Shown here: positions 2,772 to 34,961 of the stretch, one piece after another | Numbering within the stretch: position 1 is the stretch's first letter | Layout: every line of letters begins with the position of its first letter | Source: Bifidobacterium breve | Lineage (GTDB): Bacteria; Actinomycetota; Actinomycetes; Nanopelagicales; Nanopelagicaceae | Assembly (NCBI GenBank): GCA_945889195.1 | Contig: CAMDBB010000009.1 | Location: 1 to 34,961 of the forward strand | Length of the DNA stretch: 34,961 bases | Direction: 5' to 3' | Made by a program: the position numbers and the translations under genes | Notes under the pieces: generated by a model | The model's database searches: none | Told to the model about the DNA's origin: nothing | What the model saw: only the letters and a program-made list of their open reading frames with translations

Positions 2772-4454
2772 ATGAAGTTGCGAGTAGCACTTGCTCAGGT
2801 CAATCCCACTGTGGGCGACCTGGTTGGTAACGCTGCCTTAATTAAGGACGGCGTTGCTGCCGCCGCGGCGCAAGGTGCGCAGATTGCAATCTTTCCTGAG
2901 ATGGTGCTGACCGGTTATCCCGTTGAAGATTTAGCGCTACGCCCATCATTCCAACAGGCTAGCCGTGCGGCGCTGGCACAGCTTGCTACCGAGATAGATC
3001 CCAGCATCGTTGCCATCGTCGGATACCTCGATCAAGTTGTGACAACTGATGGCGCCGGAAAGCCACAGAACAAGGTTGCTGTTATCTATGGTGGCGCGGT
3101 CAAAGCAAGCTATGCCAAGTGCCACCTGCCTAACTACGGAGTCTTTGACGAATACCGAAATTTTGCACCAGGAAGCGAAACCTTGGTCGTGCGCATCCAT
3201 GGCGTCGATGTCGGAATCGCCATCTGTGAAGATCTCTGGATAGATGGTGGAATCACAGCGCAGTTAGCCGCCCGCAAGCCTGGGCTAGTCATTGTGCCTA
3301 ATGGATCTCCCTATGAACGCAATAAAGATGACATCAGACTTTCACTTGTTACCGGGCGCGCTCGCCAGGCAGCAGCGCCACTTGTCTACGTCAATATGAC
3401 GGGTGGCCAAGATGACTTGGTCTTTGATGGCGACAGCATCGTCGTGAATGCCGCAGGCGATGTCATTGCACGTGCTCCGCAATTTGAAGATGGAATTATG
3501 TTGGTGGATATTGATGTGACAACTCGCACCTCAACGCCAGATGTGGTCATCTCTGAGGATGAAGTTTCTCTCGAGCGAAGCTTGGTGCCCGGAATTGCAC
3601 ATCGCCTCGGTGATGAAGAAGAAATCTGGAACGCCATCGTTGTGGGCTTGCGCGATTACGTTGCCAAGAATGGATTTACCTCTGTACTAGTTGGCCTCTC
3701 TGGCGGTATTGATTCAGCGCTAGTTGCAGCTCTTGCAGTCGATGCGCTCGGCCCAGATCGAGTCCACGGGGTTGGAATGCCAAGTAAGTATTCATCTGAG
3801 CATTCACTTGCCGATGCTCGCCAGATGGCAGCCAACACTGGCCTGGGATTTAGGGTCGTTGAGATTCATAAGATGGTCGATGCCTACATCAAGGAACTTT
3901 CACTGACTGGTTTAGCAGAAGAGAATGTGCAGGCACGCGTTCGCGGCACAACCTTGATGGGCCTTTCTAATCAAGAGGGCCACCTGGTCTTGGCAACAGG
4001 TAATAAATCAGAGCTCGCCTGCGGCTATTCAACTTTGTATGGCGATGCTGTCGGTGGCTATGCGCCCATTAAAGATATTTACAAGACCGATGTCTGGGCG
4101 CTCTCTCGTTGGCGCAACCAAGTCGCACGTGACGCGGGTGAGACTCCACCTATTCCAGAGAATTCAATTACCAAAGAACCATCTGCTGAGCTGCGCCCAG
4201 ATCAAAAAGATTCAGATTCACTTCCAGAATATGAAATTCTTGATCAAGTCCTTAAGGCCTATGTCGATGACGATTTGGGGCGCGATGCCTTGATTGCAGC
4301 TGGCTTTGATAAAGAGTTGGTCATGCGCGTTATTGGCCTAGTCGACCGCGCCGAATACAAGCGCCGGCAGTACCCGCCTGGCACCAAGGTTTCTCAGCGG
4401 GCTTTTGGCAAGGATCGCAGGCTTCCGATGACTAGTAAGTGGCGCGAACTCTAA
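2772..4454 (+). CDS. nadE: Glutamine-dependent NAD+ synthetase
   Basis: A 560-residue two-domain enzyme that amidates nicotinic acid adenine dinucleotide to NAD+ with ATP and ammonia released from glutamine. Residues 1 to about 270 are a nitrilase/CN-hydrolase glutaminase with the complete triad Glu43 (FPEMVLTGYP), Lys116 (AKCHLPNYGVFDE) and Cys152 (AICEDLW). Residues from about 290 form the ATP-pyrophosphatase synthetase domain with P-loop SGGIDS at 310-315. Length matches the short two-domain type common in proteobacteria; the mycobacterial enzyme is about 120 residues longer. The gene heads a plus-strand run with glnA 34 bases behind it. Confidence 0.96.
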   Translation: MKLRVALAQVNPTVGDLVGNAALIKDGVAAAAAQGAQIAIFPEMVLTGYPVEDLALRPSFQQASRAALAQLATEIDPSIVAIVGYLDQVVTTDGAGKPQNKVAVIYGGAVKASYAKCHLPNYGVFDEYRNFAPGSETLVVRIHGVDVGIAICEDLWIDGGITAQLAARKPGLVIVPNGSPYERNKDDIRLSLVTGRARQAAAPLVYVNMTGGQDDLVFDGDSIVVNAAGDVIARAPQFEDGIMLVDIDVTTRTSTPDVVISEDEVSLERSLVPGIAHRLGDEEEIWNAIVVGLRDYVAKNGFTSVLVGLSGGIDSALVAALAVDALGPDRVHGVGMPSKYSSEHSLADARQMAANTGLGFRVVEIHKMVDAYIKELSLTGLAEENVQARVRGTTLMGLSNQEGHLVLATGNKSELACGYSTLYGDAVGGYAPIKDIYKTDVWALSRWRNQVARDAGETPPIPENSITKEPSAELRPDQKDSDSLPEYEILDQVLKAYVDDDLGRDALIAAGFDKELVMRVIGLVDRAEYKRRQYPPGTKVSQRAFGKDRRLPMTSKWREL

Positions 4455-4458
4455 TTCT

Positions 4459-4474
4459 GTAACACTACCGTAAC
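4459..4474 (+). promoter_or_regulatory. Candidate GlnR-type half operator upstream of glnA
   Basis: GTAAC at 4459-4463, six bases, then GTAAC at 4470-4474. Each copy fits the GTnAC / GnAAC half-sites of the actinobacterial nitrogen regulator GlnR with its usual 6-base gap. Only one pair is visible (full boxes have two), and no GlnR gene is in the window. Confidence 0.35.
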
Positions 4475-4488
4475 TTCACTTTGGCACG

Positions 4489-5811
4489 ATGGGGCACATG
4501 TCCCCACAGAACGAGCAGATCAGCAAGCAAGAAGAGTTTGTCCTTCGCACCATTGAAGAACGCGATATCCGCTTTATCCGACTTTGGTTTACCGACATTC
4601 TCGGCACTCTAAAATCTGTAGCTATTGCACCGGCAGAGCTTGATAACGCTTTTGCTGAAGGCATTGGTTTTGATGGATCTGCCATTGAAGGTTTCGCCCG
4701 CGAACTTGAATCAGATATGTTGGCAAAGCCAGATCCTGCAACCTTCACAATCTTGCCGTGGCGCGCAGAAGCGCAAGGCGCAGCTCGTATGTTCTGCGAC
4801 ATCACTTTGCCTAACGGTGAACCTTCACCTGCTGACCCGCGCAATGTTCTGCGGCGCACCTTAGATAAGGCCGCCAAGATGGGTTACACCTGTTACACCC
4901 ATCCAGAGATTGAATTCTTCCTCTTTAAATCACAACCCGAAAAAGGTGTAGCGCCAGTACCTGTTGATCAAGGCGGCTACTTTGATCACACTCCTGCAGT
5001 TGTAGGACATGACTTCCGCCGCCAAGCAATTACCTTGCTGGAAGCGATGGGCGTATCCGTTGAATTTAGCCATCACGAAGGCGCACCTGGCCAACAAGAG
5101 ATTGATCTGCGCTATGCAGATGCTTTGAGCACTGCAGATAACATCATGACCTTTAGACATGTCATTAAAGAGGTTGCGCTTAACCAAGGGTTCTTCGCAT
5201 CCTTTATGCCTAAGCCATTTACCGAACATCCTGGCTCAGGAATGCACACACACGTATCGCTCTTTGCTGGTGAAAAGAATGCCTTCTATGACGATAAGGC
5301 CGAACTCAATCTCTCTGTTATCGGTCGCCAATTTATTGCCGGCATCTTGAAGCACGCTGCTGAAATCACCGCCGTCACAAATCAATGGGTGAATTCATAT
5401 AAGCGCTTGCAGGGCGGGGGAGAAGCCCCATCCATTATCAACTGGGGACATAACGATCGCGGAGCGCTAGTGCGTATTCCTATGTACAAGCCGCAGAAAG
5501 AGAACTCGACCCGTATCGAACTCCGTTCTCCAGATTCTGCCTGCAACCCATATCTTTCATTTGCAGTGATGTTAGCCGCTGGCCTTAAGGGCATCGAAGA
5601 GAAGTACGTTCTTGAACCATCGACCGATAAGCAGCTGCTGCCATCTAATTTAGAAGAGGCGATCACCGTTATGGAGAAGAGCGAACTTGTGCGCCAGACC
5701 TTAGGCGAGCATGTCTTTGAATACTTCTTGCGCAATAAGCGCTCTGAGTGGCAGGACTACCGCCGCCAGGTCAGCGCTTATGAATTAGATCGGTACTTGC
5801 CGGTCCTCTAA
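4489..5811 (+). CDS. glnA: Glutamine synthetase, class I-alpha (GlnA2-type)
   Basis: A 440-residue enzyme that makes glutamine from glutamate, ammonia and ATP as a dodecamer in the cytoplasm. Visible signatures: GFDGSAIEGF in the N-terminal beta-grasp domain, HPEIEFFLF with metal-binding glutamates, HPGSGMHTHVSLF (the glutamate/ATP-site loop) and NPYLSFAVMLAAGLKGIEE. The C-terminal region lacks the NLYDLPPEE-type adenylylation loop of GlnA1, so adenylyl control is not expected. Length fits GlnA2 of actinobacteria. The ATG at 4489 and an in-frame ATG at 4498 are both possible; neither has a clear Shine-Dalgarno site. The heliorhodopsin gene follows 36 bases downstream on the same strand. Confidence 0.95.
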   Translation: MGHMSPQNEQISKQEEFVLRTIEERDIRFIRLWFTDILGTLKSVAIAPAELDNAFAEGIGFDGSAIEGFARELESDMLAKPDPATFTILPWRAEAQGAARMFCDITLPNGEPSPADPRNVLRRTLDKAAKMGYTCYTHPEIEFFLFKSQPEKGVAPVPVDQGGYFDHTPAVVGHDFRRQAITLLEAMGVSVEFSHHEGAPGQQEIDLRYADALSTADNIMTFRHVIKEVALNQGFFASFMPKPFTEHPGSGMHTHVSLFAGEKNAFYDDKAELNLSVIGRQFIAGILKHAAEITAVTNQWVNSYKRLQGGGEAPSIINWGHNDRGALVRIPMYKPQKENSTRIELRSPDSACNPYLSFAVMLAAGLKGIEEKYVLEPSTDKQLLPSNLEEAITVMEKSELVRQTLGEHVFEYFLRNKRSEWQDYRRQVSAYELDRYLPVL

Positions 5812-5835
5812 CCGATGTTTCTCGAGTATCACTTG

Positions 5836-5841
5836 TAGCCT
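5836..5841 (+). promoter_or_regulatory. Predicted -10 box of the heliorhodopsin gene (leaderless)
   Basis: TAGCCT, then 6 bases (TTATCC), then ATG at 5848. This suggests the rhodopsin has its own promoter besides any read-through from glnA. Confidence 0.65.
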
Positions 5842-5847
5842 TTATCC

Positions 5848-6615
5848 ATGGCAAAAGAGATTAACACTAAGAAGATTCGTAATTACAACCTCATCGCTGG
5901 CTTCTTCCACCTTGTTCAAATGGTGGTGGTACTTATCCTCTCCAGCGACTTCACATTGCCCATCGTTGCCCGTTACGCGGCAGGACCTCCGGGAAGTGAT
6001 TTTGCGGAACCTGTCACTCTGCTTGATGCGCCCATCGGAATCACTGTTGCCATATTCCTGGGCCTCTCTGCCTTCTTCCACTTCTTAGTTGCTAGCCCAC
6101 AGTTCTTTGGTCGCTATAGCGCAGGCCTTGCTGCGCAACGCAACTACTTCCGCTGGGTTGAATACTCAATTAGCTCATCAGTGATGATTGTTCTGATTGC
6201 GCTCATCACTGGAGTTTCTGATGTCGTCGCCATCATCTCTCTCTTTGGCGTTAACGCTTCGATGATTCTCTTCGGTTGGTTGCAAGAGAAGTATGAGCAA
6301 CCAGGTAATGGTGGCTGGCTACCATTTATCTTCGGATGTATTGCAGGCGCGGTTCCTTGGATTGCGCTCGTCTTCTATGTTCTTGCAATCGGTGGCCCAG
6401 GAGATACCAAAGCTCCTGCATTTGTTTACGGCATCGTCTTCTCAATATTTCTTCTCTTCAATACCTTCGCCGTTGTTCAATACCTTCAATATAAGAAGGT
6501 TGGAAAATGGTCAGATTATTTGCGCGGCGAGAAGACTTATATAACGCTCTCACTCGTTGCTAAATCCGCTCTTGCTTGGCAGATCTTCTCGGGGACCTTG
6601 ATTCCACCTCAATAA
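5848..6615 (+). CDS. Heliorhodopsin (retinal-binding seven-helix membrane protein)
   Basis: A 255-residue seven-helix protein that aligns almost without gaps to heliorhodopsin 48C12 from freshwater actinobacteria. Compared with 48C12 it is offset by two: Lys239 in LSLVAKSALAWQ is the retinal Schiff-base lysine (241), Glu105 in RWVEYSISSS is the counterion (107), Ser235 matches Ser237, and His21 and His78 match the cavity histidines 23 and 80. Heliorhodopsins face the membrane inverted (N-terminus inside), have long photocycles and do not pump ions in tests. A regulatory or sensory role is likely. There is no adjacent carotenoid or retinal synthesis gene. It lies between glnA2 and leuA; a published study reports that heliorhodopsin binds and modulates glutamine synthetase. 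Confidence 0.97.
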   Translation: MAKEINTKKIRNYNLIAGFFHLVQMVVVLILSSDFTLPIVARYAAGPPGSDFAEPVTLLDAPIGITVAIFLGLSAFFHFLVASPQFFGRYSAGLAAQRNYFRWVEYSISSSVMIVLIALITGVSDVVAIISLFGVNASMILFGWLQEKYEQPGNGGWLPFIFGCIAGAVPWIALVFYVLAIGGPGDTKAPAFVYGIVFSIFLLFNTFAVVQYLQYKKVGKWSDYLRGEKTYITLSLVAKSALAWQIFSGTLIPPQ

Positions 6616-6621
6616 GCCACC

Positions 6622-6651
6622 TTGATTAGGTAAGCAGAGTCGGGCTATCCT
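6622..6651 (+). promoter_or_regulatory. Predicted promoter of the leuA leader transcript
   Basis: -35 TTGATT at 6622-6627, an 18-base spacer, and -10 TATCCT at 6646-6651. Transcription would begin a few bases before the leader-peptide ATG at 6661, so the leader itself is nearly leaderless. Confidence 0.5.
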
Positions 6652-6660
6652 GTAGCCACT

Positions 6661-6689
6661 ATGAAGCTCCGCGGACTCCTCCTTATCCG

Positions 6690-6705
<16 letters not shown>
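6661..6705 (+). CDS. leuA leader peptide (14 residues, leucine-rich)
   Basis: A tiny ORF, MKLRGLLLIRRSEA, with four Leu codons. Three are consecutive at 6676-6684 (CTC CTC CTT). It ends 77 bases before the leuA start and its end overlaps a hairpin arm. Leucine-codon leader peptides before leuA are known in actinobacteria, where ribosome stalling at Leu codons reports leucine shortage. The position, codon content and flanking RNA structures make this a confident call despite its size. Confidence 0.88.
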
Positions 6706-8498
<1,793 letters not shown>

Positions 8499-9269: not shown

Positions 9270-9980
9270 ATGGCTAAGAAGATTGAGATTCCCCAACACA
9301 TCGCGATAGTGATGGATGGGAATGGACGTTGGGCGAAAGAGCGTGGACTTCCTCGCACCGCAGGGCATGAAGCAGGCGAGAAGGTCCTCTTCGATATCGT
9401 TGAAGCAGCTATCGAATTCGGTGTGAAAGAGATAAGTGCTTACGCATTCTCAACTGAAAATTGGAAGCGTAGCCCCGAAGAAGTCCGATTCTTGATGGGT
9501 TACAGCCGTGAAATGTTACGTACGCGTCGTGATCGCCTCAATGAGATGGGCGTAAAGATCAATTGGTTAGGCCGCCCACAACGTCTCTGGAGGTCTGTGA
9601 TTGCTGAGTTAGAAGAGGCAGAAGAGCTAACTAAGAAAAATAAGAAGCTCACCTTAAATATGTGCGTGAACTATGGCGGTCGTGCAGAGATTGTTGATGC
9701 AGCGACAGAGCTAGCTCGCGATGTGAAGCGCGGTAAAGTCAAAGCAGATTCCATCAATGAGAAGACTCTAGAAAAGTACCTCTACTCACCAAAGATGCGC
9801 GATGTCGATATGTTCCTGCGTTCATCTGGTGAACAGCGCACCAGCAACTTCTTGCCATGGCAATCTTCTTATGCAGAGTTTGTCTTTATGGATGTCTTGT
9901 GGCCAGATATGACGCCCAAGATGTTGTGGAAGGCGATTGAGATTTATTCAGCGAGAGAGCGACGTTTCGGAAGCGCTTAA
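9270..9980 (+). CDS. uppS: Isoprenyl transferase (undecaprenyl diphosphate synthase family)
   Basis: A 236-residue cis-prenyltransferase that makes the long-chain lipid carrier for cell-wall synthesis from isopentenyl diphosphate. It has the family motifs [19 protein letters not shown] (15-33; Mg-binding Asp16), [13 protein letters not shown] and a C-terminal [16 protein letters not shown] (usual form RTSGEQRLSNFLLWQ). It is slightly shorter than typical homologues. No Shine-Dalgarno is visible and the gene probably depends on the recO transcript. Its TAA stop overlaps by 4 bases the stop of the convergent tspO. Chain length of the product cannot be read from sequence. Confidence 0.93.
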
Positions 9981-10444
9981 TTGTTGCTGGCGTAGTTCGC
10001 ATTGAGAGCAGCGGCTGTAAAGATCCAGATTTGGTAGGGGATAAGTGCGATTCCAACCTTGATGGATTGTGAGAATGTAATTGCCAGAAATGGAATCGTC
10101 AGAATGGCTGTTGTGAAGAGCGAGATAGTTGCGCCCCTTAAATCATGGACTTCATAAAAAAGGTATGACCAGCGCAGCGCAACGATGACGCTAATAGCAA
10201 AGAGACCAACTGCGGCTGCAACGAGCGCAGGAGATGCCTTGCTAGCGATAACCCAGAGCGCGATTCCAATAACGATGAAGTTGTAGGGCCAGATCAGACC
10301 AAAGACAAAGCCAGGCGGTTGCCACGAAGGTTGGTTAAGTGATTGGTACCAACCATCTTGCTTATTCCAGTAGTTAGCACCGCCTGCATAAAGAAGAACG
10401 AAGGCGATTCCGATTACGGCGCTGACCGTTCTCCAGATTGTCAT
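9977..10444 (-). CDS. tspO: TspO/MBR family tryptophan-rich membrane protein
   Basis: A 155-residue integral membrane protein with five hydrophobic helices and the family motifs [24 protein letters not shown] and ALRWSYLFY. TspO proteins bind porphyrins and related tetrapyrroles and act in light, oxygen or stress responses; the exact role here is unknown. It is the third gene of a minus-strand run behind a ZIP transporter and zur, with an 18-base gap to zur. It may therefore be zinc-controlled (inference). The end overlaps the uppS stop codon. Confidence 0.9.
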
Positions 10445-28092: not shown

Positions 28093-28098
28093 AGTCTA
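28093..28098 (-). promoter_or_regulatory. Possible -10 box of the NnrD remnant
   Basis: On the minus strand TAGACT, seven bases (CAGCCTT), then ATG at 28085. TAG is the regX3 stop codon. Confidence 0.4.
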
Positions 28099-28785
28099 CG
28101 CCTCGAATTTGTACCCTAATCCACGAATAGTTTGGATAAGTACTGGGTTAGCAGGATCTGCTTCAATCTTTGAGCGTAAGCGCTTAATGTGAACATCAAG
28201 AGTCTTTGTATCTCCGTAATAGTCACCGCCCCAGACGCGATCAATGAGTTGTCCACGAGTAAGTACACGTCCGGCATTACGAAGTAAGAATTCAAGTAGT
28301 TCAAACTCTTTGAGTGGTAGCGCTATGTTGGCTCCATTCACGCTTACCTGGTGGCGCTCAACATCCATTCTGATTCCAGCGATTTCATGAACGCCAGTTG
28401 ATTCTGGACTATTGGCTTCATCAAGTGAGCCGCGACGTAGAACTGCTTTGATGCGCGCCACTAGCTCGCGTGATGAATAGGGCTTTGTTACATAATCATC
28501 TGCCCCAAGTTCGAGTCCAACGACCTTATCTATCTCAGAATCTTTCGCAGTTAACATGATGATTGGTACCTGAGAAGTTGCGCGAATAGTGCGGCAGACA
28601 TCTATTCCAGAGACTTCAGGAATCATCAGATCCAGCAGAATGAGATCAAAGCTCTCTGATTTGAATGCATCAAGTCCAGCTTTACCTGTTTCAGCAATAT
28701 GTGTGGAGTAACCCTCTTTTTCGAGAAGGAAGCTAAGGGCCTCTGAGAAAGAGATTTCATCTTCGATGATTAAGATCTTGGTCAT
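28096..28785 (-). CDS. regX3: Phosphate-type response regulator RegX3/PhoB-like
   Basis: A 229-residue OmpR-family regulator. Receiver domain 1-120 has Asp9 acidic pocket, phospho-acceptor Asp52 (ILLDLMIPEVSG), TAK and KPY motifs. The winged helix from about 130 has the LPLKEFELLEFLLRNAGRVLTRGQLIDRVWG signature and TLDVHIKRLRSKIE recognition helix. The start overlaps the senX3 stop (ATGA), so the pair is co-translated. Phosphate control is inferred from senX3 and phoU next to it. Confidence 0.93.
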   Translation of the reverse strand: MTKILIIEDEISFSEALSFLLEKEGYSTHIAETGKAGLDAFKSESFDLILLDLMIPEVSGIDVCRTIRATSQVPIIMLTAKDSEIDKVVGLELGADDYVTKPYSSRELVARIKAVLRRGSLDEANSPESTGVHEIAGIRMDVERHQVSVNGANIALPLKEFELLEFLLRNAGRVLTRGQLIDRVWGGDYYGDTKTLDVHIKRLRSKIEADPANPVLIQTIRGLGYKFEA

Positions 28786-29843
28786 GAGTTTGTTTCCCCT
28801 GTGTTGGAATAGATGGGTAGTCGAAGTGCAAATGTTGAGCCAACTGCTGGAGCGCTCCAGACGCTGACATCCCCACCGTGCTTGGTTGCTACATGCTTCA
28901 CAATTGAAAGACCAAGACCTGTGCCACCAGTTTCGCGAGAACGGGCAGGATCGACGCGATAGAAGCGTTCAAAGATTCGCGCCTGGTCAGATTCGGGAAT
29001 GCCAATTCCTTGGTCTGTCACAGAGATCTGCACAATTCCATCTTCGATTTCGGTTGTGACTGAGACCTTTGTATTTTCAGGTGAATAGTTGATGGCATTT
29101 TCAATTAAGTTATGAACTGCCATTGTTATCTGCTCGCCATCGCCAAGAACGATGGCATCTGGTGCCCTGGTAAAGGCAACTTCAATCTTTCTTGCCTGAG
29201 CAATTGTCTGGCATTGATCTACCGCCACTTGAATAATGTCATCGATACTTACTTCGTCAGCAACCGATAGTGGATCAGAGTCCTGCAGTCTGCTCAAATT
29301 GATAATCTCTTGAACCAAATCTGTTAAACGTTTAGCTTCATGTTGCATTCGACTCGCAAATTTTGTGACAGATTCCGGGTCTTCTTTTGCGGAGAGTACA
29401 GCCTCGCTAAGTAGCGAGAGCGCACCAATCGGCGTCTTTAGCTCATGAGAAATGTTTGCAACGAAATCGCGTCGTACTTCATGCACACGCTGCGCCTCAG
29501 ATTCATCGCTGATGAGAATAAGAATGAGATCCTCATCTTCGAGAGCAACAACCTTCAGTGTGAGCTCTCTCGTTCCTTCGCCTATTGGGCCTCGTGCAAT
29601 TTCAAGTTTTCCATTATGGGGATTGCGTGTGCGACGCACTGCTCTGACAATCGCTGAAAGTTCTGGAGTTAATACTCGCCCGTCACGCAAAACATTGAGA
29701 CTTTCAATTCCGTTGGAGGAGAAGATTGGTTTATCTCCGGGTCCAATAAGTAGAACATCTTCATCTAGATGATTGACTAGATCGAAGATAAAATCTGGGA
29801 CAGGGCTATTGTGAGTTTCGGAAACCTCTTTGCGAAACCACAT
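28782..29843 (-). CDS. senX3: SenX3-like sensor histidine kinase lacking membrane segments
   Basis: A 353-residue kinase. Residues about 15-115 form a PAS-like sensor region. The dimerisation domain has FVANISHELKTPIGALSLLSE with phosphorylatable His133, and the catalytic domain has NLIENAINYSPE, DQGIGIPESD and GGTGLGLSIVKH. Typical SenX3 has two N-terminal membrane helices (about 400 residues); here none is visible. An in-frame TAA two codons upstream of ATG, plus TAGGCT six bases before it, rule out a longer protein. It probably senses phosphate through PhoU and the Pst transporter from the cytoplasm. Confidence 0.9.
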   Translation of the reverse strand: MWFRKEVSETHNSPVPDFIFDLVNHLDEDVLLIGPGDKPIFSSNGIESLNVLRDGRVLTPELSAIVRAVRRTRNPHNGKLEIARGPIGEGTRELTLKVVALEDEDLILILISDESEAQRVHEVRRDFVANISHELKTPIGALSLLSEAVLSAKEDPESVTKFASRMQHEAKRLTDLVQEIINLSRLQDSDPLSVADEVSIDDIIQVAVDQCQTIAQARKIEVAFTRAPDAIVLGDGEQITMAVHNLIENAINYSPENTKVSVTTEIEDGIVQISVTDQGIGIPESDQARIFERFYRVDPARSRETGGTGLGLSIVKHVATKHGGDVSVWSAPAVGSTFALRLPIYSNTGETNS

Positions 29844-29849
29844 GTGTTA

Positions 29850-29855
29850 AGCCTA
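29850..29855 (-). promoter_or_regulatory. Predicted -10 box of senX3-regX3 (leaderless)
   Basis: On the minus strand TAGGCT, six bases (TAACAC), then ATG at 29843. A perfect 6-2-6 inverted repeat (CTCGGG-TG-CCCGAG, 29859-29872) lies directly upstream. Confidence 0.6.
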
Positions 29856-29871
29856 ATGCTCGGGTGCCCGA

Positions 29872-29889
29872 GTTAACCGTCCGTTCATG
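29872..29889 (+). promoter_or_regulatory. Candidate Pho box between senX3 and phoU
   Basis: GTTAACC (29872-29878) and GTTCATG (29883-29889) are direct repeats with an 11-base period, as in actinobacterial Pho boxes (GTTCACC-type repeats bound by PhoP/RegX3). It lies 43-60 bases upstream of phoU and within the -30 to -46 region of senX3. Only two units are visible. Confidence 0.4.
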
Positions 29890-29920
29890 CGGATGATTTC
29901 CATTATTCACCAAAGGCGCG

Positions 29921-29926
29921 TACTTT
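29921..29926 (+). promoter_or_regulatory. Predicted -10 box of phoU (leaderless)
   Basis: TACTTT, six bases (TGCCCA), then ATG at 29933. Confidence 0.6.
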
Positions 29927-29932
29927 TGCCCA

Positions 29933-30589
29933 ATGGCTCTCATCCGTTCGGTATTCCAAGAAGAACTCGATGGCGTCTCACAGTCCCTTGTTGACCTCAC
30001 AAACATGGTGAGCGATTCCATCCACAAGGCCACCCAAGCCCTCATTAGCGCTGACCTCAAGCTTGCCGAAGAAGTCATCACTTTTGACGAAAGAGTTGAT
30101 TACTACCAGCATGATCTAGATAGCCGCATTATTGACATCATTGCCCGTCAACAACCTGTTGCAACTGATTTACGTGCGCTAGTAACTGCGCTACGTATGA
30201 GCGCTGATTTAGAACGTATGGGCGACCTGGCACACCACGTTGCCAAGGTTGCACGACTTCGTCATCCAAACTCTGCAGTTCCAAATGAACTCCATGCAAC
30301 ATTTACTCAGATGGGCTCTGTTGCTGAAAAAATCGCCCGCAAAGTTGGAACTGTGATTGAAACCCGTAACACTCTCTTGGCGCTAGAAGTTGAGAAAGAT
30401 GATGACGAGATGGATTCACTTCACCGCGAGGTTATCGGAGCCCTCACAAGCTCTTCATGGAATAAGGGAGTTGACTCTGCCATCGACTTGACTCTGCTGG
30501 GTCGTTATTACGAGCGTTATGCAGATCATGCAGTCTCAGTTGCTCGCCGCGTCTACTTCTTAGTTACCGGCGAATACTCACCCGCTTAA
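29933..30589 (+). CDS. phoU: PhoU phosphate-signalling protein
   Basis: A 218-residue all-helical protein with two PhoU repeats (about 5-95 and 110-205), each with the E/DxxxD metal-binding pattern (for example [19 protein letters not shown] and [17 protein letters not shown]; later [15 protein letters not shown]). PhoU links the Pst phosphate transporter to the histidine kinase and keeps the regulon off when phosphate is plentiful. It is divergent from senX3-regX3, the mycobacterial order. pst genes are not in the window. Confidence 0.94.
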
Positions 30590-32732: not shown

Positions 32733-33604
32733 AAGCTAATTGATAGGTAGTCAAGGGCCACAATCTCACCTTTAACTCTATGTACTAACCAAGCATCGCC
32801 CGGCTCAAGTTTGATTAAATCCTTATTCTTTAACTTTGTATTAAGAATTCCGCGTAACATCGTTGGAATTACAGGGTTATGGCTGCAGATCAGAATATTT
32901 CGCTCATCTTGCTTGAGCGCATTGGCAAAAGTTATGGAACGTTCTGGGTCAGATTCGAATGTGGCTTCATTCAGGCTAGGTACTTTGCTGACAGCCAAAC
33001 CACGTGATTCACCCAGTGGAGTAACAGTCTGCACACAACGCGTGAAGTCAGAGGTGTAAATCTCATCGATTGCAAAGGGCGCTAGGTGGCTAATCAGTGA
33101 TTGTGCTTGAGCTAAACCATTTTCATTTAAGGTTCGTAGAGAATCATCGCCATCCCAGTCGCCTCGCTCGAGCGCTTTGGTGTGGCGCAGAATAATGAGC
33201 GTATCTGTGGGCTCTTCAATCTCAAGAAAGCGCTCCACCATCTCTTTATCTGACTCGTGGGTCGCGGTGGAGATTGCATCTTGGGGCCTAAACCACTGAA
33301 GCTGATCAACCTCTTCATTTGGTTGAAAATTAGATGCGCCCAGAGCCTGTGCGACCCAGTACTTAACTCGCTTTAAAGCGCCGTTATCTTCATATTCAAC
33401 AGAACCTAATTGACGGGTAAATCTTGCTTTGATGCCAGTTTCTTCAAAGACTTCTCGGTAAGCGCAGGCGAGTGGAGTCTCGTCTCCATCAATTTTTCCC
33501 TTTGGTAGCGACCAATCGTCATAACGAGGCCTATGCACCAGCGCCACTTCAATTTCACCTGCAGAGCTCTCTCTCCACAGCAAAGCCCCGGTTGCTCTAA
33601 TCAC
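32729..33604 (-). CDS. MutT1-like Nudix hydrolase fused to a histidine phosphatase domain
   Basis: A 291-residue two-domain enzyme. The Nudix domain (about 1-130) has the complete Nudix box GKIDGDETPLACAYREVFEETGI (36-58). From about 133 a phosphoglycerate-mutase-like domain begins with LIILRHTKALERGDW (RH motif) and has SHNPVIPTML at the second His. The fusion is that of mycobacterial MutT1, which hydrolyses 8-oxo-GTP/dGTP and diadenosine polyphosphates. It starts with GTG, overlapping the ppk stop (GTGA), so it is translated together with ppk. Confidence 0.93.
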   Translation of the reverse strand: MIRATGALLWRESSAGEIEVALVHRPRYDDWSLPKGKIDGDETPLACAYREVFEETGIKARFTRQLGSVEYEDNGALKRVKYWVAQALGASNFQPNEEVDQLQWFRPQDAISTATHESDKEMVERFLEIEEPTDTLIILRHTKALERGDWDGDDSLRTLNENGLAQAQSLISHLAPFAIDEIYTSDFTRCVQTVTPLGESRGLAVSKVPSLNEATFESDPERSITFANALKQDERNILICSHNPVIPTMLRGILNTKLKNKDLIKLEPGDAWLVHRVKGEIVALDYLSISF

Positions 33605-34961
33605 GCGCGGTTATGTTTTTCTACAAAGTGATCTTGGAAATTGACCAAGAGATTTCCTTCAAAGTCTCGCACCTTACGTTGCCATTGATTATCTTCAACC
33701 AGAGACCATGTCGAGTAGTTCTCAGAGACAGAGTCATCCAAGATGCGTCGAAGGCGATCCTTATGCTTTTCAGCATCAATTCGAACCAACGCTTCTACGC
33801 GACGATCTAAATTACGGTGCATCATGTCTGCGCTGCCTATGAAATACTCTTCGTCGCCATCATTCTTAAAGTAATAGATGCGTGAATGCTCTAGGAATCG
33901 GCCAAGTATCGAACGAACTTTGATGTTATCCAGTTGGGCCTGGGTTGAAAATTGCAGAGCGCAGATGCCTCGAACGATGATTTCAATTTTTACTCCCGCA
34001 TCAGCTGCTTCGTAGAGGGCCCCAATAATCTCCTCATCGAGGAGCGAATTGAGCTTCAGACGAATCCAAGCGGTCTTTCCATCGAGATGATTCTTAGTCT
34101 CACGATGAATTCGAGAGAGCAGACCTTTACGGAGACTGTGCGGTGCCACCAAGATTCTTGAGTAATCGTGCTTGGCAGAATGTCCAGAGAGTTCATTAAA
34201 CAACCTTGATAGATCTTCACCCAACTCTGGTTCGGAGCTAAGAATTCCTAGATCGTCATAGAAGCGAGCAGTCTTCGGGTTGTAATTACCTGTTCCAACG
34301 TGACAGTAGCGACGCAGGACATCGCCCTCTTCACGAACAACAAGAGATAACTTTGCGTGTGTCTTAAGGCCCATCAGGCCATAGACGACGTGCACACCAA
34401 CTTCTTCCAGCTTTCTCGCCCAACGCACATTTGCCATCTCATCGAAGCGAGCACGAATTTCAATTACTGCAAGAACTTGTTTGCCAGCTTCAGCAGCCTC
34501 AATCAACGCTTCTACGATTGGCGAGTCTCCTGATGTGCGATACAGAGTCTGTTTAATCGCGAGAACTTGTGGGTCTCGGGCAGCGTTCTCTAGAAATTTT
34601 ACGACCGATGAAGTAAATGATTGATATGGGTGGTGGAGCAGGATTTCACCTTTGCGTAGGGCTGCGAAGTAGGAATCTGGAGTTTCAGGGTCTACATCGC
34701 GAAGTTCTGGCGCTGTCTCGCTTCTAAATGGCTTGAACTTCAGCTGCGGGAAATCCAAGTCGGCAATCTGATTGAGAGAGACTAAATCAAGAGGTGAGTC
34801 ATATTTGATGACATCACTCGGTTCAATTTCGAGCTCATCCATAAGTTCATTGAGAACTTCATGCGCAATGACCTTATCTACCTCTAAGCGAACAGGTGGC
34901 CCAAACCTACGGCGTGTGAGTTCCTTCTCCATGGATTCAAGGAGATCTTCGCTCTCATCTT
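33601..34961 (-). CDS. ppk: Polyphosphate kinase 1 (partial, N-terminus outside the window)
   Basis: The last 452 residues of an enzyme of about 700 that makes polyphosphate from ATP. The frame stays open through an internal ATG (34932) to the window end, with DESEDLLES continuing upstream as in homologues, so the gene is cut by the edge rather than short. The catalytic domains C1/C2 are present: HHPYQSFTSSVVKFLENAA, LKTHAKLSLVV with the phosphorylated His, HVGTGNYNPKTARFYDDLG, and SADMMHRNLDRRVE near the end. Confidence 0.96.
   Translation of the reverse strand, partial: DESEDLLESMEKELTRRRFGPPVRLEVDKVIAHEVLNELMDELEIEPSDVIKYDSPLDLVSLNQIADLDFPQLKFKPFRSETAPELRDVDPETPDSYFAALRKGEILLHHPYQSFTSSVVKFLENAARDPQVLAIKQTLYRTSGDSPIVEALIEAAEAGKQVLAVIEIRARFDEMANVRWARKLEEVGVHVVYGLMGLKTHAKLSLVVREEGDVLRRYCHVGTGNYNPKTARFYDDLGILSSEPELGEDLSRLFNELSGHSAKHDYSRILVAPHSLRKGLLSRIHRETKNHLDGKTAWIRLKLNSLLDEEIIGALYEAADAGVKIEIIVRGICALQFSTQAQLDNIKVRSILGRFLEHSRIYYFKNDGDEEYFIGSADMMHRNLDRRVEALVRIDAEKHKDRLRRILDDSVSENYSTWSLVEDNQWQRKVRDFEGNLLVNFQDHFVEKHNRA

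Follow-up and report, generated by a model that had tools for sequence, protein, structure and literature searches.

The DNA analysed here, referred to as the window, is the whole of contig CAMDBB010000009.1 (C9; 34,961 nucleotides) of assembly GCA_945889195.1, a genome of the family Nanopelagicaceae, and it carries a heliorhodopsin (HeR) gene directly behind a gene resembling glutamine synthetase (GS). The GS-like open reading frame occupies 4489–5811 of the forward strand (440 amino acids) and is followed on the same strand, after 36 bases, by the HeR open reading frame at 5848–6615 (255 amino acids), confirming the adjacency that an initial annotation had proposed as a light-to-nitrogen control module. 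The HeR is complete, is the single HeR match in the host genome of 1.43 Mb, and matches PF18761 (E 1e-99) and NF038020 (347.8 bits against a cut-off of 100, residues 10–251). His21, His78, Glu105, Ser235, and Lys239 all stand at the positions first claimed for them and are present in 54 of 54 HeRs encoded next to genes of the GlnA2 type, the type to which the GS-like gene is assigned below; the retinal Lys239 and the counterion Glu105 with Ser235 mark the protein as a heliorhodopsin. The HeR of a close relative, AbHeR, has an inverted topology and pumps no ions (PMC9529153). The initial annotation saw no retinal synthesis gene nearby; a search for blh (PF15461), which did not extend to the crt genes, gave a sole match in the genome, on another contig, C4.

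This arrangement is already in print, and the window is therefore a further member of a known group. The order panB, NAD synthetase, GS, HeR, Gfo/Idh/MocA, and leuA was described in strain IMCC26103, in the report of HeR–GS binding and modulation to which the initial annotation had alluded (PMC9529153). Isothermal titration calorimetry (ITC) of AbHeR and AbGS gave a Kd of 100 uM in detergent and 6.06 (+/- 5.44) uM in vesicles; the kcat/Km of AbGS was 5.42 alone, 8.01 with HeR in the dark, and 12.19 in the light; the K216Q change abolished binding, and E151Q bound approximately three times better (PMC9529153). Transcripts joining HeR, GS, and NAD synthetase, the same three genes as in the window, were reported from a freshwater metatranscriptome and attributed to either Ca. 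Planktophila or Ca. Nanopelagicus (PMC8612252), and a glutamine-synthetase group of HeRs is listed in PMC11109279. Since Ca. Planktophila species and IMCC strains are the members named for the published GS group (PMC9529153), the genus of the window is probably Ca. Planktophila. The window shares with that group a GS directly upstream on the same strand, nadE before it, and Lys216, Lys217, and Lys220 in the HeR. It shares with IMCC26103 the order panB, nadE, GS, HeR, leuA, the three lysines, Glu105, Ser235, and the retinal lysine of AbHeR, and the Ala and Pro that replace Ser and Asn of true GS in AbGS. It differs in lacking a Gfo/Idh/MocA gene between HeR and leuA and in having Gln rather than Glu at residue 151. 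Furthermore, a single operon promoter is inferred and a conserved adenylation site is discussed in PMC9529153, whereas separate conserved signals are found in the group of the window and its enzyme lacks the adenylylation-loop segment of GlnA1. A literature search returned no paper joining heliorhodopsin with GlnR or with "leaderless"; heliorhodopsin together with "gamma-glutamyl" returned only PMC9529153, the main text of which contains neither polyamine nor GlnA2, and some papers mention both heliorhodopsin and polyamine.

Two GS-family genes were found in the genome, and the copy in the window (PF00120/PF03951) is 35% identical to the canonical GlnA1 encoded elsewhere. With 80 named loci, drawn almost entirely from Streptomyces and relatives but without S. 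coelicolor itself, it shares 69–75% identity, and it narrowly misses the cut-off for true type I GS (TIGR00653, 427.8 bits against 429.15). Of the ammonium-site residues, Ser53 is replaced by Ala (residue 65) and Asn264 by Pro (residue 248), whereas GlnA1 of the same genome keeps Ser and Asn. Pro at the Asn264 site was found in 44/44 enzymes adjacent to HeR, 24/24 non-adjacent enzymes of the same genus, 20/27 in other genera, 31/33 in other class members, and 80/80 named loci. The alignment to GlnA1 also bears out the earlier description of a GS type without the adenylylation loop, which weighs little against a true GS because some true GS also lack it. Of 197 genomes sampled across the class, 187 have a relative at E 1e-90 or better, making it an old core gene; in two GlnA2 search sets, 4/30 and 2/30 genomes gave no match. 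The sequence thus points to a GlnA2-type side branch rather than the housekeeping GS, an enzyme that may not mainly make glutamine, with orthology judged by identity and the Pro residue. The proposed control of "glutamine synthetase" may therefore name the wrong reaction.

The GlnA2 of Streptomyces coelicolor (SCO2241) belongs to the same orthologue group by the identity of its relatives and has the same Asn-to-Pro change; according to PMC8998196, it is a gamma-glutamylpolyamine synthetase that ligates glutamate to polyamines and has no GS role in the living cell, its activity with ammonium appearing only in assays at concentrations far beyond the physiological. The same paper reports a gTnAc motif at the glnA2 promoter, similar to a box of the window described below, and better GlnR binding to that promoter upon acetylation, but the exact box of the window occurs in 0/80 named loci. 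No heliorhodopsin accompanies SCO2241, and the loop of the Streptomyces enzymes is longer in the alignment. The kinetics of AbGS (kcat 0.15 per s, Km for glutamate 27 mM; PMC9529153) would fit a GlnA2-like enzyme, although the poor but real growth that it allows an E. coli glnA mutant indicates that it has some GS activity (PMC9529153). One rival explanation is that the HeR switches an amine-ligating, polyamine-type GlnA2 and so couples light to the use of organic nitrogen. The Streptomyces orthology argues for it, as does an operon in the genome for a polyamine-type transporter whose PotA exceeds its subfamily cut-off; its PotD-like protein falls far below its own cut-off, the substrate is predicted by orthology, and no PuuD-type hydrolase was seen in the genome among the three PF07722 matches, which are GuaA, a PabA/TrpG-like amidotransferase, and CarA. 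As a marker of PuuD, PF07722 was rejected, with matches in 14/14 control genomes as well, and for these reasons no PuuD is claimed. This switch also meets the objections to direct HeR control given below and is considered unlikely; the fuller version, in which nitrogen starvation controls a GlnA2 that mainly gamma-glutamylates amines, the HeR tunes it by light, and the published weak GS activity is a side reaction, appears equally improbable.

A HeR is present in 185 of the 296 genomes of the family and in 14 of its 17 genera, the order-level search covering the same 296 genomes and genus labels being taken from the family-level search table. The loci examined comprise 150 from 149 family genomes (the best matches among the 185, with weaker or partial HeRs left out) and 45 from outside the family. 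A sample of 394 genomes of the class, in which the family was also represented, contained 77 with a HeR; 48 of these lie outside the family, and three of the 48, having partial matches, were left out of the locus set. Loci with fewer than 1000 bases upstream (7/150 and 4/45) were not evaluable. GlnA2 lies upstream of HeR on the same strand at 54 of 143 evaluable family loci, more than expected by chance, and all of these belong to the genus of the window (54/87), with 0/56 in 11 other genera and 0/41 outside the family. At 48 of these loci the spacing, stop codon excluded, is 24–61 bases; at the remaining six it is 400–976 bases (3-base stop codon included). The survey of gene order that the initial annotation had called for thus has two sides: the order extends across GlnA2 enzymes 81–100% identical to that of the window, but it is confined to one genus. 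HeR does not keep a fixed position relative to glnA, and at the 96 loci not scored as adjacent it sits at many other places, no neighbour family being common to more than 20 of them. An order restricted to very close relatives, or a HeR mobile relative to glnA, which the initial annotation had itself named as telling against its reading, is largely what was found.

Genomes of the same genus in which the HeR is absent or elsewhere indicate what the site looks like without it. GlnA2 is followed directly by leuA (2-isopropylmalate synthase; 6783–8498, forward strand, by profile match in the window) in 23 of 27 such loci from 26 genomes, that is, in 23/23 where the contig allows, the other four ending at contig ends; the gap is 24–185 bases in 17 and 501–957 bases in six. 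The gene before GlnA2 in the window is nadE, the glutamine-dependent NAD+ synthetase (2772–4454, forward strand; NF010588, 672.6 bits), which precedes GlnA2 in 5/27 of the HeR-free sites. At loci L154, L165, L166, and L171, genes for a pyridoxal phosphate enzyme (cysK-like) and a hexapeptide acetyltransferase (cysE-like) were seen there instead of nadE, an assignment made by inspection of the four loci and Pfam on one. In HeR-bearing genomes nadE holds this place, and the two arrangements seem to alternate.

The linkage of HeR to GlnA2 is not special within this neighbourhood, since other genes are kept about as well. At adjacent loci, where room allows, nadE is kept in 31/31, panB in 23/23, leuA in 29/30, recO in 23/25, and uppS in 22/23, so that a linkage beyond the expectation from local synteny is not borne out, and HeR tends to track GlnA2 less closely than the others do. 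The rank correlation of pairwise identities over 19 adjacent loci is 0.45 for GlnA2–HeR, 0.74 for GlnA2–leuA, and 0.70 for GlnA2–nadE; over a second set of 14 loci, it is 0.58 for GlnA2–HeR and 0.75–0.82 for GlnA2 with four other genes, both sets being limited to adjacent loci in which all genes were long enough. Loci L029 and L041 have GlnA2 98.0% identical and HeR 81.7%, and in the pairs L041/L029 and L085/L030 the HeRs are approximately 82–83% identical while GlnA2 is approximately 98%, as if HeR alleles had been exchanged in place beside near-identical GlnA2. Such pairs speak for a pure neighbourhood effect, in which the HeR landed in a permissive gap with no functional tie to GlnA2. That explanation also draws on the HeRs found elsewhere at 33/87 evaluable loci of the same genus and 56/56 of other genera, on the absence of a common neighbour family, and on the promoter signal of the HeR itself; the long retention in the main GlnA2 clade, the published binding (PMC9529153), and the published co-transcription (PMC8612252) stand against it, leaving it possible but doubtful.

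Adjacency does not mark a single HeR clade; that candidate was rejected, as the HeR tree (two rows with stops, L010 and L086, left out) needs six changes, at least three of them forced. The GlnA2 tree needs two changes within the genus; its rows are 53 adjacent, 25 same-genus non-adjacent that were hand-chosen and not random, and 12 from other genera, L091 being too short. Apart from the main clade, a second large GlnA2 clade holds 11 adjacent and 24 non-adjacent rows. The trees fit a single early insertion after which one clade lost the HeR and HeR alleles were later exchanged, and repeated arrival of HeR at the site is a possible alternative to a single origin.

The HeR of the window has a promoter signal of its own, as had been proposed. 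The hexamer TAGCCT at 5836–5841 (forward strand), 6 nt before the ATG, is a −10 box of the leaderless type with no Shine–Dalgarno-like (SD-like) sequence, and the pattern TANNNT occurs 5–8 nt before the HeR start in 53/53 adjacent loci (5.6 expected from shuffles) and 50/54 in other genera (5.3 expected). SD-like words precede none of the adjacent HeRs, two in other genera, and none of the non-adjacent HeRs of the same genus. Within adjacent loci, nadE (26/26) and recO (24/24) have the same leaderless look, uppS does not (0/15), and leuA has TANNNT in 0/48 and an SD-like word in 48/48. A generic promoter and terminator scan of 4300–6850 stayed at the shuffled level, with one terminator-like site, inside HeR.

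A different signal stands before GlnA2. The sequence GTAAC-n6-GTAAC at 4459–4474 (forward strand) is an exact match to a GlnR-type nitrogen-control box; the S. venezuelae consensus is given as GTnAC-n6-GTnAC in PMC10704036. A genome-wide count gave only three exact sites, against one for the reversed control; the other two lie before glnA1 and before an ammonium transporter gene (PF00909, TIGR00836). Among adjacent loci, the box before GlnA2 is exact in 36/43 and has at most one mismatch in 42/43 (25/32 exact in a narrower test), and it never has fewer than two mismatches before HeR (54), nadE (25), leuA (48), or recO (24). Exact boxes are rarer elsewhere, preceding GlnA2 in 2/34 other class members and 0/80 named loci. 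The initial annotation had held that a GS lacking the adenylylation loop leaves scope for some other regulation, and this box supplies part of the answer. GlnA2 may also start leaderless at 4498 rather than 4489, with CACGAT (4485–4490, forward strand), 7 nt before that ATG, as a possible −10, read by eye and not counted across loci. Read-through from GlnA2 into HeR is likely in this strain with its gap of 36 bases, and co-transcripts have been published. As to a single promoter common to the published group, the separate signals at nadE and HeR and the box before GlnA2 point one way and the co-transcripts the other.

The lysine patch of the published interface was compared across HeRs with and without a GlnA2 neighbour. 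K216, K217, and K220 are present in 53, 53, and 52 of 54 adjacent HeRs, in 32, 31, and 33 of 33 non-adjacent HeRs of the same genus, and in 57, 47, and 56 of 61 HeRs of other genera; outside the family (n = 45), they are present in 28 (43 with Arg), 9, and 20 (37 with Arg). Being equally conserved without adjacency, the patch characterises the HeRs of the family at large and does not set apart those next to a GS, and either HeR meets GlnA2 in trans as well or the patch serves another use.

These data bear on the explanation of a dedicated light-to-nitrogen module, in which HeR binds the adjacent GS via Lys216, Lys217, and Lys220 and more glutamine is made in the light. It has in its favour the published ITC binding, the light-raised kcat/Km, the loss with K216Q and the weak glnA complementation (PMC9529153), the three lysines of the window HeR together with Gln at 151, the residue of the better-binding E151Q, and the persistence of adjacency in the main GlnA2 clade. 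Against it stand the GlnA2-type enzyme with the Km and kcat given above, the lysines conserved irrespective of adjacency, the weaker-binding Glu151 in 32/54 adjacent HeRs, the tie of HeR to the local genes, which is the weakest by rank correlation, and the E. coli test, in which cells with both genes fell off just as the empty-vector strain did, the sole positive result being the difference between light and dark (PMC9529153). The initial reading is partly supported: it was right on the adjacency, the residues, the missing loop, the promoter signal, and the published report, and it is weakened by the enzyme type, the distribution, the synteny comparison, and the lysines. A dedicated light-to-GS module is possible but is not favoured by the comparison, and we regard it as rather unlikely.

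The explanation favoured here, with a probability of roughly 0.5, is that GlnA2 is under nitrogen control and that the light sensor downstream has a promoter of its own, with read-through from GlnA2 and perhaps a mild secondary binding. A HeR with its own leaderless promoter would have inserted between glnA2 and leuA in the ancestor of part of one genus and then been retained. GlnA2 would be a nitrogen-starvation gene under the GlnR-type box, not the housekeeping GS, and HeR would be expressed from its own promoter and also by read-through when nitrogen control turns GlnA2 on; the coupling would therefore be primarily transcriptional. HeR would act as a general light sensor, and the GlnA2 binding and light activation reported for the close relative would be at most a mild secondary effect. 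Gene order, distribution, motifs, residues, and the tree and history comparisons were computed in this study, and co-transcription, binding, and the light effect come from the papers; GlnR binding to the box, read-through in this strain, a single old insertion, and the roles of the two proteins are what we infer.

Several observations weigh against this explanation. The reported binding and light activation, for which K216Q served as control, point to a direct functional link (PMC9529153), and the short gaps of 24–61 bases would suit an operon. In the main GlnA2 clade 42/43 rows keep the adjacency, and in the remaining one the contig stops within GlnA2 (the non-adjacent rows of the tree being hand-chosen, the sample is not random). 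The bootstrap ranges of the GlnA2 correlations overlap. TANNNT precedes only 18/31 non-adjacent HeRs of the same genus (2.5 expected), and it precedes GlnA2 in 0/46 adjacent loci, so that a GlnA2 promoter would rest on the box and on the −10 read by eye. The box is a putative GlnR site, and its exact form precedes GlnA2 in only 7/25 non-adjacent loci of the same genus and 6/28 loci of other genera, several of which carry variants.

Other features of the window were also noted. Between HeR and leuA, an open reading frame at 6661–6705 (forward strand) encodes a leuA leader peptide, MKLRGLLLIRRSEA, with three consecutive Leu codons, and an inverted-repeat search found arms at 6690–6700 and 6716–6726; the leader and repeats (6661–6782) resemble a leucine attenuator and may function as one. 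An Rfam search of the window gave a tRNA as its sole match. The divergent gene upstream of nadE is presumably panB-like, a name based on the neighbourhood described in PMC9529153. A Lys/Ala-rich repeat protein (KKRRKKAAA repeats) of histone-like composition is encoded at 98–442 on the reverse strand. At 9977–10444, also on the reverse strand, lies a tryptophan-rich sensory protein of the TspO type, whose NF047825 score of 62.4 bits falls short of the cut-off of 180; the TspO family is linked to light or porphyrin sensing. The stretches 28096–30589 and 33601–34932 hold a PhoR/PhoB-like two-component pair, with scores under the cut-offs, beside a presumably PhoU-like gene, and a presumably polyphosphate kinase-like gene (Ppk) at the contig end.

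Heliorhodopsins occur widely, with no settled view of what they do, and the pairing with GS is among the few cases with a claimed target. The present analysis adds to it the GlnA2 type of the enzyme, the one-genus distribution, the tendency of HeR history to match that of GlnA2 less well than nadE or leuA does, the non-specificity of the lysines, and the separate signals of HeR and GlnA2. Adjacency of genes alone is weak evidence for a light–enzyme switch, and a GlnA2-type target with separate control signals and unspecific lysines suggests that experimenters should try other substrates and partners. The substrate of GlnA2 is the question whose answer would change most. If a light-tuned, amine-ligating GlnA2 proved true, light would govern the use of dissolved organic amines as a nitrogen source in a genus of freshwater actinobacteria.

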